Below are positions 1 through 16,152 of a DNA stretch of 38,139 nt, one piece after another. The DNA lies in NCBI GenBank assembly GCA_003283415.1, contig QBXH01000010.1:1-38139 (forward strand), in the 5' to 3' direction. The notes under the pieces are model-generated. The model did no database searches. It had not been told where the DNA came from and was given only the letters and a program-made list of their open reading frames with translations. Position numbers and translations under genes: made by a program. The number at the start of each line of letters is the position of its first letter. Position 1 is the first letter of the stretch. The DNA comes from Prochlorococcus sp. AG-321-E21. Lineage in GTDB: Bacteria > Cyanobacteriota > Cyanobacteriia > PCC-6307 > Cyanobiaceae.

Positions 1-1142
1 CTCAAGCAATCTGCGACCTCTTTTACATCTTTATCTCTTACTTGCTCATCATTTCTACAACCACTATTAACCAAAGCTTGAACAGTCGTAAATCTATATT
101 TATTATGCTCTTTATTAGTCCATTCTTCTATTCGCGAAAAGAAGGGATGCTCTGCTTCAAAATTTAAATTTCTGATGTTAATTTCCTTTTTAAATTCATC
201 CTTTAAATCTAATATCATGCCTTCTTTATAAGCCAAAAGAGCAGCTTTCCAGATTCGATCTCTATCTTTTAAAACCTTATTATTATTAATTAATTTACCT
301 TCTAGATTGATTACCCAAAACCTTCTAGAGCCAGTTGGATCATTTAGAAAATCAGTCCTATTACAACTTGAAACCATTATTGAAGGTCTTGGATAAGCCC
401 CAATACTCCTTCCATAAGGTCTTCTAAATGTATCGATAGGACTTGATAAAAGAGCTTTTAATGATGCCGCTTTTTCAGAATTTGGTGAGATCCTATCAAG
501 TTCAGCAATTTCAAAAATCCAACATCTTTGAAGTGTCATTGCTAGGTCTTGATACTTTGGTTGCCATGTATCTGCAAAGAAATCGTCAGAAGCTAAATAT
601 CTCCAGAAAGTAGATTTTCCTGTTCCTTGCTTACCAACTAATACACAACAATTATCAAATTTAACACCACGATTTTTGACCCTTGCAACGGCTGCAATAA
701 GAGTCATTTTTAGCATCTGGTTGAATAACTTAGATTCAGTTCCTAAGTAGTCGCTTGCAATTGTTTCTATGTCAATTGGTTTAATTGATTTATCTGATGT
801 AATCCTTTCTAGATATGAATTGACTGGATGATATGTATTTTGACGAGCTGCTGTTAATAAACCATCAAAAGCTGCGTCTTTTCTAATGTTATAACCATAC
901 ATATTTAGATAAGTTGAAAAATCCTCGATCATATCTAAAGGAATAGGCAATTTATCAAATTCAGGTTCTAAAGTTAGAAGATTGAATGTTAACCGTGAAG
1001 AACAATTATCAACTAAAAGTTCTACAAGATCACCAGAATCAATTTTCTTTTTTTTATCCCCCTCATAACCTTTTGGGAGTTTTATCTTATTAAGAAATCC
1101 AGTTCTAATAATTTGGTTTTTATTTGTAAAAGTATCAGTCAC
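1..1142 (-). CDS. VapE/VirE-type helicase of a mobile element, partial (3' end outside window)
   Basis: 380 codons are visible and the reading frame is open at position 1, so the C-terminus is missing. The protein has a Walker A motif GKQGTGKST at residues 170-178, a Walker B-like segment with two acidic residues at about 211-214 (IFEIAELD), a sensor-like SSCN ending at 261 and an arginine pair in GSRRFW near 273. That order and spacing match the virulence-associated E (VapE) helicases found in phage satellites, prophages and plasmids, where they act in replication initiation. The start is a GTG at 1140-1142 that overlaps the stop of the upstream gene by 8 bp. A Shine-Dalgarno-like AAGGAGA lies 6-7 nt before it, which favours this start. 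The N-terminal 130 residues match nothing I recognise. The family call is firm; the biological host element is inferred. Confidence 0.85.
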   Translation of the reverse strand, partial: MTDTFTNKNQIIRTGFLNKIKLPKGYEGDKKKKIDSGDLVELLVDNCSSRLTFNLLTLEPEFDKLPIPLDMIEDFSTYLNMYGYNIRKDAAFDGLLTAARQNTYHPVNSYLERITSDKSIKPIDIETIASDYLGTESKLFNQMLKMTLIAAVARVKNRGVKFDNCCVLVGKQGTGKSTFWRYLASDDFFADTWQPKYQDLAMTLQRCWIFEIAELDRISPNSEKAASLKALLSSPIDTFRRPYGRSIGAYPRPSIMVSSCNRTDFLNDPTGSRRFWVINLEGKLINNNKVLKDRDRIWKAALLAYKEGMILDLKDEFKKEINIRNLNFEAEHPFFSRIEEWTNKEHNKYRFTTVQALVNSGCRNDEQVRDKDVKEVADCL

Positions 1143-1506
1143 AAAATTCTCTCCTTATTCTTTTTTTCTTTTTTTTAGATGTACTTGGTTTATATCCTTT
1201 AGTTACTTTGCCTCCTCTAATATTGGCTAAACTTTCTAGAAAAACAATATCATTACTTTTTTGGATATTTGTTTTTTGAGAATTATAAGAAATATTGGAG
1301 GTTCTTTGATTACTGGTAAAACCAATAGATTCAGGATCAAGAACTATTTCTTTATGCTTGTTTTTTAGTAGCTGTGAATAACGCCCTATAACAGCTAAAT
1401 GAGCATCAAATTGTTCTTCAACAGATAAAAATCTGGAAGAACCACATCTTTGAAAAGCTTCCCATTCTTGAGGGAATTTCTGTGAATTTTTCAATTTTCC
1501 CTCCAT
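1135..1506 (-). CDS. Hypothetical protein, 123 aa, in the VapE operon
   Basis: I do not recognise the family. The protein is hydrophilic with no signal peptide or membrane segment. Residues 10-50 look helical, with several aromatic residues. The C-terminus is very basic, with a run of five lysines followed by R and K residues at about 108-119, as in some nucleic-acid-binding proteins. Its ATG overlaps the end of the preceding 78-aa gene by 16 bp and its stop overlaps the GTG of the VapE-like gene by 8 bp, so the three are almost certainly translated from one mRNA, probably with coupling. The position just before VapE suggests a replication accessory role, but this is guesswork. Confidence 0.7.
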   Translation of the reverse strand: MEGKLKNSQKFPQEWEAFQRCGSSRFLSVEEQFDAHLAVIGRYSQLLKNKHKEIVLDPESIGFTSNQRTSNISYNSQKTNIQKSNDIVFLESLANIRGGKVTKGYKPSTSKKKKKRIRREFCD

Positions 1507-1727
1507 GCTTTAGGAATCCAAATATTCATTTGTTCATCCAGGGATAAGTAGTTTTGTTCTGCTACTTTTTTACAGGCAATAATTAAAGCAATTTCTTTCA
1601 ACCTATCTTTTGATTGATAGCTTTCTAACTCATTGATATTTTCTATCTCCTGAAACTCATCTACAATATGAGTATTAACTCTTTTGTTTGTAGGTTCTCT
1701 GTCAAAGGAGGTTTTTTTTTGATTCAT
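1491..1727 (-). CDS. Hypothetical protein, 78 aa, in the VapE operon
   Basis: No family recognised. It is a small hydrophilic protein, acidic in the middle (residues 23-40) and probably helical towards the C-terminus (RLKEIALIIACKKVAEQ). A strong AGGAGG lies about 10 nt before the ATG and inside the last codons of the upstream ribbon-helix-helix gene, whose stop is only 2 bp away. This supports the start and shows the gene is real and co-translated. It overlaps the next gene by 16 bp. A function cannot be assigned; it travels with the VapE-like helicase. Confidence 0.7.
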   Translation of the reverse strand: MNQKKTSFDREPTNKRVNTHIVDEFQEIENINELESYQSKDRLKEIALIIACKKVAEQNYLSLDEQMNIWIPKAWREN

Positions 1728-1729
1728 TT

Positions 1730-1912
1730 TTAAATGACCTCCTTATGCCTTTTCAGACCGTTATCTATTAAGGCTCTTAGTAGCTCGGCATTAGAACAGT
1801 TATAGTGTTCAGCTAACTTACTAAATTTTTTAAAAATGGAATCAGTTACACGACATTGAATAGTTGGAGTAGCATCAACTTTTCGTGATCTTTCCTTAAC
1901 ATCAATCAACAT
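1730..1912 (-). CDS. Ribbon-helix-helix (CopG/Arc-like) DNA-binding protein
   Basis: A 60-aa protein with the layout of an RHH repressor: a short strand at about residues 15-23 (TPTIQCRVTD), helix A at 24-37 and helix B at 40-54 after a turn (YNCSNAELLRALIDNGLKR). Such proteins bind DNA as dimers and usually control their own operon; in mobile elements they act as copy-number or excision regulators or as antitoxins. It is the first gene of the operon that continues to the VapE-like helicase. No strong Shine-Dalgarno precedes the ATG, unlike the next gene. No toxin-like partner of a known family follows, although the 78-aa protein cannot be excluded. The fold is fairly sure; the regulon is inferred. 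Confidence 0.75.
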   Translation of the reverse strand: MLIDVKERSRKVDATPTIQCRVTDSIFKKFSKLAEHYNCSNAELLRALIDNGLKRHKEVI

Positions 1913-1968: not shown

Positions 1969-2028
1969 TCACTACGATCTTATGGAATACGTTGTTAGGT
2001 ATAAATAGGCTAATTACGTTATGAGAGT

Positions 2029-3612
2029 TTAGAATTGCCAATCTTGAATTCTTATGTGTGGGAATATATTATCTTCTTCTTCAATATCTTTAAGAAATTT
2101 ATAATCAATAATAGATTTATCTTCTAACATCTCAATTAATTTCCAGAATCTAAATAGGTGTCTATCAATCCTTTCTTTGGCAAGTTCAGTTGTAGTTCCC
2201 GCTTTTAAAATGAAACTCCAATCAGAGGATTCAGAAAGAAGTAATTCTCTTGCCGCTTGCTTTAATAATCTTATAGAAAAATTATCATTAAATTTCCTAC
2301 TTGATAATTCAACAAAAACCGACCCCGCTTTTGTAATTTTTGGAACTATCCAGGCATTCTTATCATTTAGCCAGTAATTATGAAAGCCCCCTTGTCCCCA
2401 ACTTGAAGGAGAAGGATCACAAATTTGGAGGTTAGGTTTATGGAGGAGAATTTCTTTTAGATTTGTGAGCTTAATTGAATATTTTTTAGATTTTTTAAGT
2501 ATATTTTCAATAAATTTTGGTCCTTCATACCACCAATGTCCAAATAATTCAGCATCAAATGGAGCAATTAACAAAGGTTCGAATGATGATGACAAAGAAA
2601 GGTTCTTTAATTGTTTAGATCTTGATAAAAGATAATTTTCAGCATGTTCTTCAACTTTTTTTATAGCTTCATCTTGTAGGTAAAATTCTTTTTTGCCTAA
2701 TGAACCTTTATTATTTGTAATTCTATGAAATTTTAATCCTAAAGGCCTGCTTGTTGGAATTCCTTTTTTTTGTAGTTCTGAGGAAGATAATTCCCACCCT
2801 AAGTCTTTATGAAATTCTCTATAAAATGGATTTCCTGGATATCCTTCTCTTGAGGACCAAACGGGCAAAGTTGATTCACTATCTCTCCCAAAAAAAGCCA
2901 CACCTCTCTTTGAGCAAATAGGTGCATAAACTCCATACTTTGGCCTTGGTGATCCATTCAAAATCCCATGACCATCCAAAACAGCATATCTAATTCCACA
3001 ATTCACTAATATTTCATCTAAATTTTCGTAATAAGCGCACTCAGGCAACCATATGCCTAAGGGTCTTGTTCCTAAAAAAATTTCATGACTTCTTATCGCT
3101 GTATTTATTTGCCCTAAAACTGTTTCAGGGTTTTCTCTAAGAATTGGCAAATATCCATGTGTTGCCGCACAAGTAAGAATATCTAAATTTCCAGTCAAAT
3201 TTAATTTTTTAAATCTCTCTATTAAATCACCAGAACATTTTTCCCAATATGAAAAATTATTTTTAATATTTCTCAAAAGAAATTCAGCGGCAGCTAATTC
3301 TTTTTGAGGTAAATCACTCAAAAATTCTATTCTTGTTTTAATCCAAGTTGAATATTTCTTTTGAATTTGTTTATTTTTGAGAAGAGATAATAAGGTTGGA
3401 GATAAACTAAGAGTTAACTTTGTATTCCTAATATCTTTTTTTTTGCTTGATTCCATTACTTGAAGTAAAGGAATATAACATTCTAGTATTGCTTGGAATA
3501 ACCAATCTTCTTCTAATGAATTTTTTTCATGTTTTCGAACATATGGGAGATGAGCATGTAGAACTATTGCCAATTTGCCTAAGAATTTTTTATTAGGGAT
3601 AGGCCCATTCAT
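2029..3612 (-). CDS. GH57 1,4-alpha-glucan branching enzyme
   Basis: A 527-aa member of glycoside hydrolase family 57, the branching-enzyme (DUF1957) type, which forms alpha-1,6 branches in glycogen in the cytoplasm. The GH57 conserved regions are visible: HAHLPY at residues 19-24, ATHGYLP at about 150-156, GIWLPECAYY with the predicted nucleophile Glu191, and FDAELFGHWWYEGP with the predicted acid/base Asp. The length is normal for the family and no frameshift is seen. It is divergent from leuA. Its 3' end faces the accessory VapE region, so it marks the edge of the conserved chromosome. With malQ (19795-21315) it belongs to glycogen metabolism. An amylopullulanase activity is the main alternative, less likely given the GHWWYEGP motif. 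Confidence 0.88.
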   Translation of the reverse strand: MNGPIPNKKFLGKLAIVLHAHLPYVRKHEKNSLEEDWLFQAILECYIPLLQVMESSKKKDIRNTKLTLSLSPTLLSLLKNKQIQKKYSTWIKTRIEFLSDLPQKELAAAEFLLRNIKNNFSYWEKCSGDLIERFKKLNLTGNLDILTCAATHGYLPILRENPETVLGQINTAIRSHEIFLGTRPLGIWLPECAYYENLDEILVNCGIRYAVLDGHGILNGSPRPKYGVYAPICSKRGVAFFGRDSESTLPVWSSREGYPGNPFYREFHKDLGWELSSSELQKKGIPTSRPLGLKFHRITNNKGSLGKKEFYLQDEAIKKVEEHAENYLLSRSKQLKNLSLSSSFEPLLIAPFDAELFGHWWYEGPKFIENILKKSKKYSIKLTNLKEILLHKPNLQICDPSPSSWGQGGFHNYWLNDKNAWIVPKITKAGSVFVELSSRKFNDNFSIRLLKQAARELLLSESSDWSFILKAGTTTELAKERIDRHLFRFWKLIEMLEDKSIIDYKFLKDIEEEDNIFPHIRIQDWQF

Positions 3613-5980: not shown

Positions 5981-7453
5981 TTAAGAAAAAGTGTTATTTT
6001 TTGTTGTGGGATATTGAATTCGTCTATGTCTAATTCTTTTCCAAACATTTAAGAATGATTTTTTTATCAGAAAAATTTCTCCCTTGGAAAGATTACTATC
6101 ATTTAATTGGCCATCAACTTGCCTTGAATCAAAAATTTTGGATAGTGTTTCTAGGGCTTCATAATCGGAAGCATTTATATCCATTGCCCTTAAAGCAGCT
6201 TCACATCCATCTGCAAGCATCAAGATAGCTGTTTCCTTAGATTGAGGGATAGGACCTTTATATCTAAAATCGCTCTCATTAAATTTTAATTTTTTCTCTT
6301 CAGCTTTATTAAGAAAATATCCCATTTTTAGAGTTCCTTGATGTTCTGGAATGAAATTAGCTATTGGTTTTGGCAATCTATTTTTTCTTGCAAACTTTAG
6401 GCCTTGATCAACGTGGGCTTGTAAAATCTCAGCGCTTTTTAAAGGATCATCTATCTCGTCATGCGGATTTTTTGCTCCATCTTGATTCTCAATAAACCAA
6501 TTTGGAGCATGTAATTTGCCAACATCATGATAGAGAGAACCAGTTTTAATAAGATCGATATCTCCTCCAATCATTCTTGTCGCCTCTTCAGCTAGTCCAC
6601 ATATCAATAAAGTATGTTCAAAAGTACCAGGAGCTTCAATAGAGAGTCTTCTAATAAGAGGTTTTTCTTTATCAGCCAATTCCATTAATCTTGCCTTCGT
6701 TAATAATCCAAATATTGACTCAAAAATGGGAATAAATAATATAATTATGAGCATTATTATTGCCAACAGTAGAGAATCAGAAAATATTTTGCCATTTAAT
6801 TCAAATAATGCTTGATTATCTATTAAGGAATATTCCTCATTTCCAATTAGTATCCATTGGGAAATCAAAGCCCCAATTGGAACAAATATTGATAATTGAA
6901 GTAACTGAGCTCGACTTCTTATTTTTCCTCCAAGGACAGAAACGACACATGCGCAAATCAGGGTTATGAAAAGCAAATTATTATTAATATTCGTAATAGA
7001 TTCAGGCCAGCTTAAGCTTGCTATTGATATCCAAGCTAAAGCAGTTATGGTTCCCATCCCTTGAGAAATAATTAAAGCAGGAGGAACTATAATAGATAAA
7101 GGACTTAGGCTAGATCCATATATGTTTTTTATCATTTGAACTATTAACAGAAGCGAAATAATTAAGAGTATTTGTCTAGCATTAATGTTTGGATTTTCTT
7201 TTCTAGATATTAGTATTAAAAGTCCACAAGAAAATAAAACCTCAGCAAAAGTAAAGCCCCAAGAAAAAACATCAGAAACTTCTAAAGTTTGAACAAGCAG
7301 TATTTTATAAGAAGATATTATCGAAATAACAATACATATTAAGAAAATAATTAATTTATCTATTGTTGAAATCTTTACAAGACCTTTTGCAGGGACTTGA
7401 CTTCTTTTCCAAAAATAATTTATTTTTTTTAAAATTCTTATAGGTTTTTGCAC
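5981..7453 (-). CDS. 7TM-HD phosphohydrolase, PgpH-like (candidate c-di-AMP phosphodiesterase)
   Basis: A 490-aa membrane protein: one helix at about 33-54, then six or seven further helices between about 65 and 250, then a cytoplasmic HD domain. Metal-binding residues are visible: His280 (FEHTLL), HD at 309-310 (LYHDVGK), His331 (NPHDEI), His347 (LQAHVD), His371 (PEHQG) and a late Asp in MLADGCEA. This is the 7TMR-HD family, whose members in Listeria (PgpH) hydrolyse c-di-AMP. Unlike those proteins, there is only a short loop between helix 1 and the 7TM block, so the large extracellular 7TMR-HDED domain is missing. A diadenylate cyclase gene is present at 32725-33615, which supports the c-di-AMP role, but the substrate is inferred. 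Confidence 0.85.
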   Translation of the reverse strand: MQKPIRILKKINYFWKRSQVPAKGLVKISTIDKLIIFLICIVISIISSYKILLVQTLEVSDVFSWGFTFAEVLFSCGLLILISRKENPNINARQILLIISLLLIVQMIKNIYGSSLSPLSIIVPPALIISQGMGTITALAWISIASLSWPESITNINNNLLFITLICACVVSVLGGKIRSRAQLLQLSIFVPIGALISQWILIGNEEYSLIDNQALFELNGKIFSDSLLLAIIMLIIILFIPIFESIFGLLTKARLMELADKEKPLIRRLSIEAPGTFEHTLLICGLAEEATRMIGGDIDLIKTGSLYHDVGKLHAPNWFIENQDGAKNPHDEIDDPLKSAEILQAHVDQGLKFARKNRLPKPIANFIPEHQGTLKMGYFLNKAEEKKLKFNESDFRYKGPIPQSKETAILMLADGCEAALRAMDINASDYEALETLSKIFDSRQVDGQLNDSNLSKGEIFLIKKSFLNVWKRIRHRRIQYPTTKNNTFS

Positions 7454-7527
7454 AGAATATAATTAAATCTAATTGTCTAATTTAAAATTATAGGCATGCT
7501 AGTAGTAAAAAGGAGAAGTTTTTCTAA

Positions 7528-16129: not shown

Positions 16130-16152
16130 TTAAATTTTTTAAAATTAATTGA

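Follow-up and report, generated by a model that had tools for sequence, protein, structure and literature searches.

The window analysed here, a stretch of 38,139 nucleotides that begins at the left edge of contig C10 of a Prochlorococcus genome (G000), very probably starts inside a mobile element that was inserted by a large serine recombinase (LSR) at the convergent junction of the genes crtL and GH57. At the sequence level, this reading is supported by two element ends on two contigs, by the same dinucleotide at both of them, by an empty site in most relatives and by an intact LSR reading frame. The assembly of G000 comprises 48 contigs and is estimated to be 73% complete; the middle of the element is absent from it, and the LSR and the VapE helicase gene are joined via reciprocal junctions, not by one contig. 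The unassembled middle may hold a second recombinase, and tandem elements may lie between crtL and GH57.

The helicase operon at the left end of the window

Positions 1 to 2022 make up the end of the element that carries the helicase and ribbon-helix-helix (RHH) genes; the element continues past the contig edge, and its integrase end lies at C6:1-3183 of the same genome. Four genes on the minus strand are packed here, with the positions and overlaps that the sequence-only reading had given them from the open reading frame list. The first encodes a VapE-type AAA+ helicase (3..1142; Walker A motif GKQGTGKST), which is truncated by the contig edge: its N-terminal 380 aa are visible, compared to 427 aa in the closest intact homologue. 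This gene has an 8-bp overlap (1135-1142) with that of a 123-aa protein (1135..1506), which in turn overlaps by 16 bp (1491-1506) the gene of a 78-aa protein (1491..1727). Both small proteins are of unknown function and have no match in Pfam, PHROG or PADLOC at the limits used. A spacing of 2 bp separates the 78-aa gene from the gene of the 60-aa RHH regulator (1730..1912).

The identification of the helicase as VapE-like was borne out by matches to PF05272 in Pfam (E=6.4e-58), to the helicase phrog_1313 in PHROG (E=7.4e-61) and to the profile of PDB 7pds ("Similar to D. nodosus vapE"; E=1.9e-29, profile positions 69-283), which we take to be the VapE helicase of a staphylococcal island. These two proteins share the helicase core and differ in host, integrase, regulator and gene content.

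The 60-aa protein has no Pfam match. When its single-sequence structure model (mean pLDDT 72.7) was ranked against the PDB, CopASO, ParG, MatP, PutA and CopG came out on top, all with E-values above 0.7. The gene is best read as ribbon-helix-helix: RHH folds fill the top ranks with matches that are not significant, which supports, and does not prove, the regulator that had been proposed from the sequence. The RHH proteins of six elements align, and homologues that are 47-90% identical occupy the same end in the five other elements. VapE with a small upstream DNA-binding regulator, a trait of phage satellites, is thus present, with the fold of the regulator taken from low-significance matches.

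The feature had been ended at 1912, the outer limit of the RHH gene; the position of the attachment core places its end at 2022. The RHH-side attachment arm (2000..2020, plus strand) consists of TATAAATAGG, then 11 nt to the core, an arrangement common to G000, G199, G245 and G104. The crossover dinucleotide AT (2021..2022) is the putative core, and the same AT occurs at the other end of the element (C6:3182-3183). The host flank follows with a GH57 / 1,4-alpha-glucan branching enzyme-like gene (2029..3612, minus strand), which converges on crtL where the site is unoccupied.

The crtL/GH57 site and the integrase end

A search with GH57 gave 30 loci including the window's own, and gene order was read for 15 of the 29 others. 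In 14 of these 15 loci, GH57 and a lycopene-cyclase-like gene converge across a gap of 4-8 bp; from its sequence, we presume the latter to be crtL. At the fifteenth locus (G199), a serine recombinase stands in the place of crtL. The crtL gene of G000 is found on another contig (C6:3180-4391), where it adjoins a 664-aa LSR (C6:1125-3119) and a 250-aa ligase-like gene. Since crtL is split from GH57 and an LSR stands beside crtL, we read the VapE operon as the end of an element inserted at crtL/GH57. The sequence-only reading had likewise seen an accessory end of a mobile element with the remainder to the left of position 1, in agreement with the contig edge and with the second end on C6; neither an ordinary core left flank nor a broken helicase lacking mobile neighbours was encountered.

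The comparison with relatives lacking the insert, which had been suggested as a check, was made by seeking both genes in 131 genomes of the genus. At least one gene was found in 100 and both were located in 97, with crtL counted among the matches listed, so that fragments of it scoring below a crtL-like paralogue may be missed. The site is empty in 91 of the 97 genomes: 90 have the two genes within 30 bp, and G028 was added on reading (an insertion considered for its gap was rejected, as a broken crtL explains the gap). An insert is present on a single contig in three genomes (G020, G073 and G104), and crtL and GH57 are on separate contigs in another three (G000, G199 and G074). Among the three genomes with one gene listed (G113, G078 and G120), the first two look empty, with the site at a contig edge. 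G245, reached via the LSR search, adds a further occupied site. When the G000 flanks are joined across C6 and C10, they resemble the empty site of relatives, and attB is rebuilt.

Neither host junction has a tRNA: there is none on L092 (C6:1-9000), and the sole tRNA in the window is a tRNA-Glu at 16151. The tyrosine recombinase and tRNA site that had been expected from the sequence are replaced by an LSR at the other end and by a junction of two protein genes. A canonical tycheposon, that is, an element of a tyrosine recombinase sitting at a tRNA gene, with both features hidden in the unassembled part, is accordingly very improbable in our judgement. Such an origin would fit VapE genes 87% identical near tRNA-Pro in G038 (L040) and, with a partial match, in G110:C23 (L044), a broken VapE copy on C16 of G000 with tRNA-Pro 4.7 kb away, and a VapE gene approximately 1.2 kb from a phrog_1 integrase gene in L035 (PF00589 at E=0.013 only). 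However, of the two host junctions of the G000 insert one has the LSR end and neither has a tRNA, and the same insertion point is used in other genomes with LSRs of the same group. A tRNA-borne tycheposon at crtL/GH57 itself was rejected, given the LSR end at the integrase-side junction and no tRNA on either side.

The LSR of the preferred reading, an LSR-inserted element, has Resolvase, Recombinase and zinc-ribbon domains in an uninterrupted frame and matches the integrase phrog_95 (E=2.9e-42). S32, presumably the catalytic Ser, lies in a YxRVST stretch and is invariant among the five LSRs aligned. Relatives of the element recur at three target sites: crtL/GH57, gloA (family PF00903) and a 46-aa ORF. 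The crtL/GH57 LSRs are 65-92% identical among themselves over the parts compared (84-86% for G000 and G245, the LSR gene of G245 being interrupted) and 38-51% identical to the LSRs at gloA and the 46-aa ORF; among the three gloA LSRs compared, identities are 88.5-97.6%. Within the genus, the LSR of G030 had matches in 12 of 266 genomes, several of them with fragments only. When a profile built from five LSRs was run over 399 genomes of the order, 34 gave matches, with lower scores outside the genus. Against IMG/VR, one relative (23% identity) was picked up by the LSR profile and 50 by a VapE profile, none of the latter above 39% identity. An ordinary prophage remnant was rejected: IMG/VR and phage records hold no close relative, and close VapE relatives come from the same genus, four of them on named Prochlorococcus contigs.

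Next to the integrase, LSR elements encode a protein of 240-251 aa that has the adenylation domain of NAD-dependent ligases; genes with this domain lie at L092 376-1128, L094 10514-11263 and L035 4531-5286. The ligase-like gene overlaps the end of the LSR gene by 4 bp in G000, G006, G214 and G030 (where it is broken) and by 1 bp in G110, and is 12 bp apart from it in G245. In L041, a ligase-like gene has no adjoining integrase among the ORFs listed. The 4-bp overlap also follows the phrog_1 integrase of L035, one tyrosine-type case versus four serine-type cases.

Attachment junctions and orientation

The motif CCCCTTTTGTYATAA marks the LSR end. In each of the nine genomes with the exact motif (G000, G006, G020, G030, G104, G110, G199, G214 and G245), it lies 57 nt before an ATGGC at which the LSR gene can start; three of these genomes (G020, G199 and G245) have an additional ATGGC at 51 nt. 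There is no other occurrence of the exact motif in the window and the loci compared; it is altered in G041, G243 and G300 and degraded in G073 and G276. The dinucleotide at the host boundary sits 10 nt outside the ACCCC of this motif. At the RHH side, TATAAATAGG and 11 nt precede the dinucleotide in the four crtL/GH57 elements named above, and G006 and G214 have TGTAAAGCGG in the TATAAATAGG register. Both ends carry the same dinucleotide in six elements: AT in G000, G199 and G245, TT in G104, CT in G006 and AG in G214. By reading, the other end of G030 has AAGA in common with its LSR end, a less exact fit to its core, and in G073, where the motif is degraded, the fixed register reads GA. In G000, attL and attR agree in a 2-nt core, and attB can be rebuilt from the flanks, as in an LSR integrative element.

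The core overlaps the stop codon of crtL, and the adjoining arm supplies the rest of it. The LSR arm starts with GA, for a TGA stop in G000, G104 and G020; the other arm, read from crtL, starts with AA, so that the stop is TAA in G199 and G245.

With both arms present in G000, and with the LSR, ligase-like and RHH genes and the visible VapE uninterrupted, we think it improbable that the module is a decayed remnant that can no longer move. That reading is suggested by relics at the same site in G104, G020, G073 and G074, by the interrupted LSR gene of G245 and by the broken VapE of C16.

For an element that is still mobile, the following course is proposed. The LSR would recombine an attP of the form TATAAATAGG-N11-[AT]-N10-ACCCCTTTTGTCATAA with a putative attB in which the A of [AT] ends the final sense codon of crtL and the T opens its stop codon. 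AT reads the same on both strands, and insertion at crtL/GH57 would therefore lack a set polarity. After excision, VapE would replicate the DNA under the control of the RHH regulator, and phage particles or vesicles may spread it. An AlpA-like small HTH protein of relatives is a candidate excision factor; as a lead to the missing middle of the G000 element, its gene turned up only the copy on C16.

The central dinucleotide of serine integrases controls the productive orientation, according to PMC3783163, where a study of Bxb1 orientation is cited. At crtL/GH57, the elements with core AT have the LSR end at crtL in G000 and at GH57 in G199 and G245; G000 and G245 thus differ in orientation in spite of the 84-86% identity of their LSRs. 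Those with core TT have it at crtL in both G104 and G020, and the degraded LSR end of G073 is also on the crtL side. At the 46-aa ORF, the three insertions with core TT (G030, G243 and G300) all lie the same way. At gloA, the LSR end is toward the C-terminus in G110 (AG) and G041 (GG) and toward the N-terminus in G006 (CT). It is also toward the N-terminus in G214 (AG), which contradicts the dinucleotide rule if the empty site was CT. The gloA core pattern was matched in 20 of 24 loci, with CT in 18 and CA in two, one of the latter being the intact copy of G041; two of the four unmatched loci (L133 and L153) have CA by reading.

These patterns suggest that the palindromic AT core allows both orientations at crtL/GH57 and that non-palindromic cores allow one, a proposal built on the only three AT-core insertions known. 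The insertions that lie the same way, including those with TT, could also descend from one event. We met no natural palindromic core for serine integrases in the literature searched, which does not prove that none is known. Sites with AT, TT, CT, AG and GG cores provide a natural test of the dinucleotide rule, with one exception (G214).

Related elements and known systems

The replication modules of the related elements vary. VapE is found in G000 and G030; G245 has a 782-aa DUF3854/D5-type primase, and G199 a similar N-terminal part. Matches to the window's VapE were present in 38 of 197 relatives, and VapE modules 87-88% identical occur in other islands of the genus, as the sequence-only reading had stated for mobile islands of Prochlorococcus. 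On C16 of G000 (L004), a broken VapE at 6336-7474, in pieces 77% and 90% identical, is accompanied by an AlpA-like gene and by tRNA-Pro(tgg) at 1570-1644; this locus is probably a decayed island.

The element of G006 encodes an AAA_25 ATPase and a prohead protease-capsid fusion with domains PF04586 and PF05065, and like genes, with PF05065, are present in G214. This fusion in LSR elements, together with the match of VapE to PDB 7pds, raises the possibility of a phage satellite, an element that travels with a helper phage, in capsids of its own or in captured ones. We regard this as possible for G000 but on the unlikely side. PF05065, which matched 18 of 266 genus genomes, is absent from G000, G030 and G245 (weakly so for G000, where the middle of the element is missing), no capsid-like ORF was seen on reading the elements of G030 and G245, and IMG/VR holds no close relative of the LSR or of VapE. 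VEIMEs, which are marine phage satellites named in PMC10187409 and PMC11389934, are likewise marine integrative elements of the phage-parasite type. They differ in the tyrosine recombinases with which PMC10187409 cites them, and packaging of the G000 element is hypothetical.

The relative in G245 is complete, at about 15.8 kb (C1, approximately 33.4-49.2 kb), and occupies crtL/GH57. Its cargo is a guanidine-assimilation gene set (L156 16560-20000 and L096 1-2560, G245:C1): an arginase-family enzyme matching PDB 7esr/7oi1 (E=7.8e-227), which we take to be the guanidine hydrolase Sll1077 of Synechocystis, HypA (PF01155; below the NCBIfam cut-off) and HypB, an SsuA-family binding protein, a permease (by reading), an ABC ATPase and a Rieske-type oxygenase (below the NCBIfam cut-offs). 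No guanidine riboswitch was matched with Rfam up to E=0.1 in 6,701 bases of the region. These genes correspond to the guanidine cluster described in PMC10119275, a field study that ties it to nutrient-poor water; the excerpts of that paper at hand make no mention of a mobile element for the cluster.

In elements inserted in gloA, the broken gene has both parts at the element ends (in G006, and by reading in G214). Such elements (L094 8266-17012; L095) also enclose a complete 129-aa gloA copy, which may substitute for the broken gene.

Tycheposons of Prochlorococcus were reportedly first described in Cell in 2023. To our knowledge, the island elements of Prochlorococcus known so far use tyrosine recombinases and tRNA genes. 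PMC10872708, in which tycheposons are described, and PMC10187409 agree with this. Our elements resemble tycheposons in genus, in related VapE modules, in being cargo islands and in having members with capsid or nutrient genes. They differ in carrying an LSR and using protein-gene sites, one of them in both orientations, where tycheposons have a tyrosine recombinase and tRNA genes. For G000, an LSR and no tyrosine integrase was read at the junction, and integration is not at a tRNA; the cargo typical of tycheposons is represented by the guanidine set of G245 at the same site, with the G000 middle unassembled. Compared to large serine integrases of the Bxb1, phiC31 and A118 type, the G000 enzyme is likewise a three-domain LSR, and its arms likewise surround an orientation-setting dinucleotide (PMC3783163). 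It differs in its 26.8-29.4% identity to phage records (among the 10 listed of 16 matched) and in its putative natural AT core, which is palindromic. From gene content and junctions, the element appears to be of a known general kind, an integrative element of an LSR whose replication end resembles that of satellites or tycheposons. Within the literature searched, which did not include the original tycheposon and VEIME papers, it would be a new variant.

We give about even chances to a broader interpretation, a family of serine-recombinase islands parallel to tycheposons. In such a family, the end regulator and the ligase-like integrase partner would be fixed, and integrase class, replication module and cargo would be exchanged; the AT core at crtL/GH57 would lose the polarity that non-palindromic cores fix. 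A second integrase class at protein-gene sites would represent a second route of gene exchange in an abundant ocean microbe, besides tRNA-targeting elements. Prochlorococcus is a genus with few genetic tools, and the elements offer candidate integrases with putative attP/attB pairs for it.

Several loci carry further genes. G276 has an N-terminal LSR relic with a degraded end motif at a further, different site (L101 7326-7571). The degenerate crtL/GH57 element of G104 carries a protein of the candidate defence family PDC-S11 (L097 7844-8752; E=7.6e-99). In L035 (9650-18874), matches to Vsr, MzaB, MzaC, MzaD and MzaE and a type II methyltransferase-like gene adjoin the VapE module, and the modules of L040 and L041 adjoin ArsR-, GAPDH-, MFS-, chromate-transporter- and PstS-like genes (named by reading).
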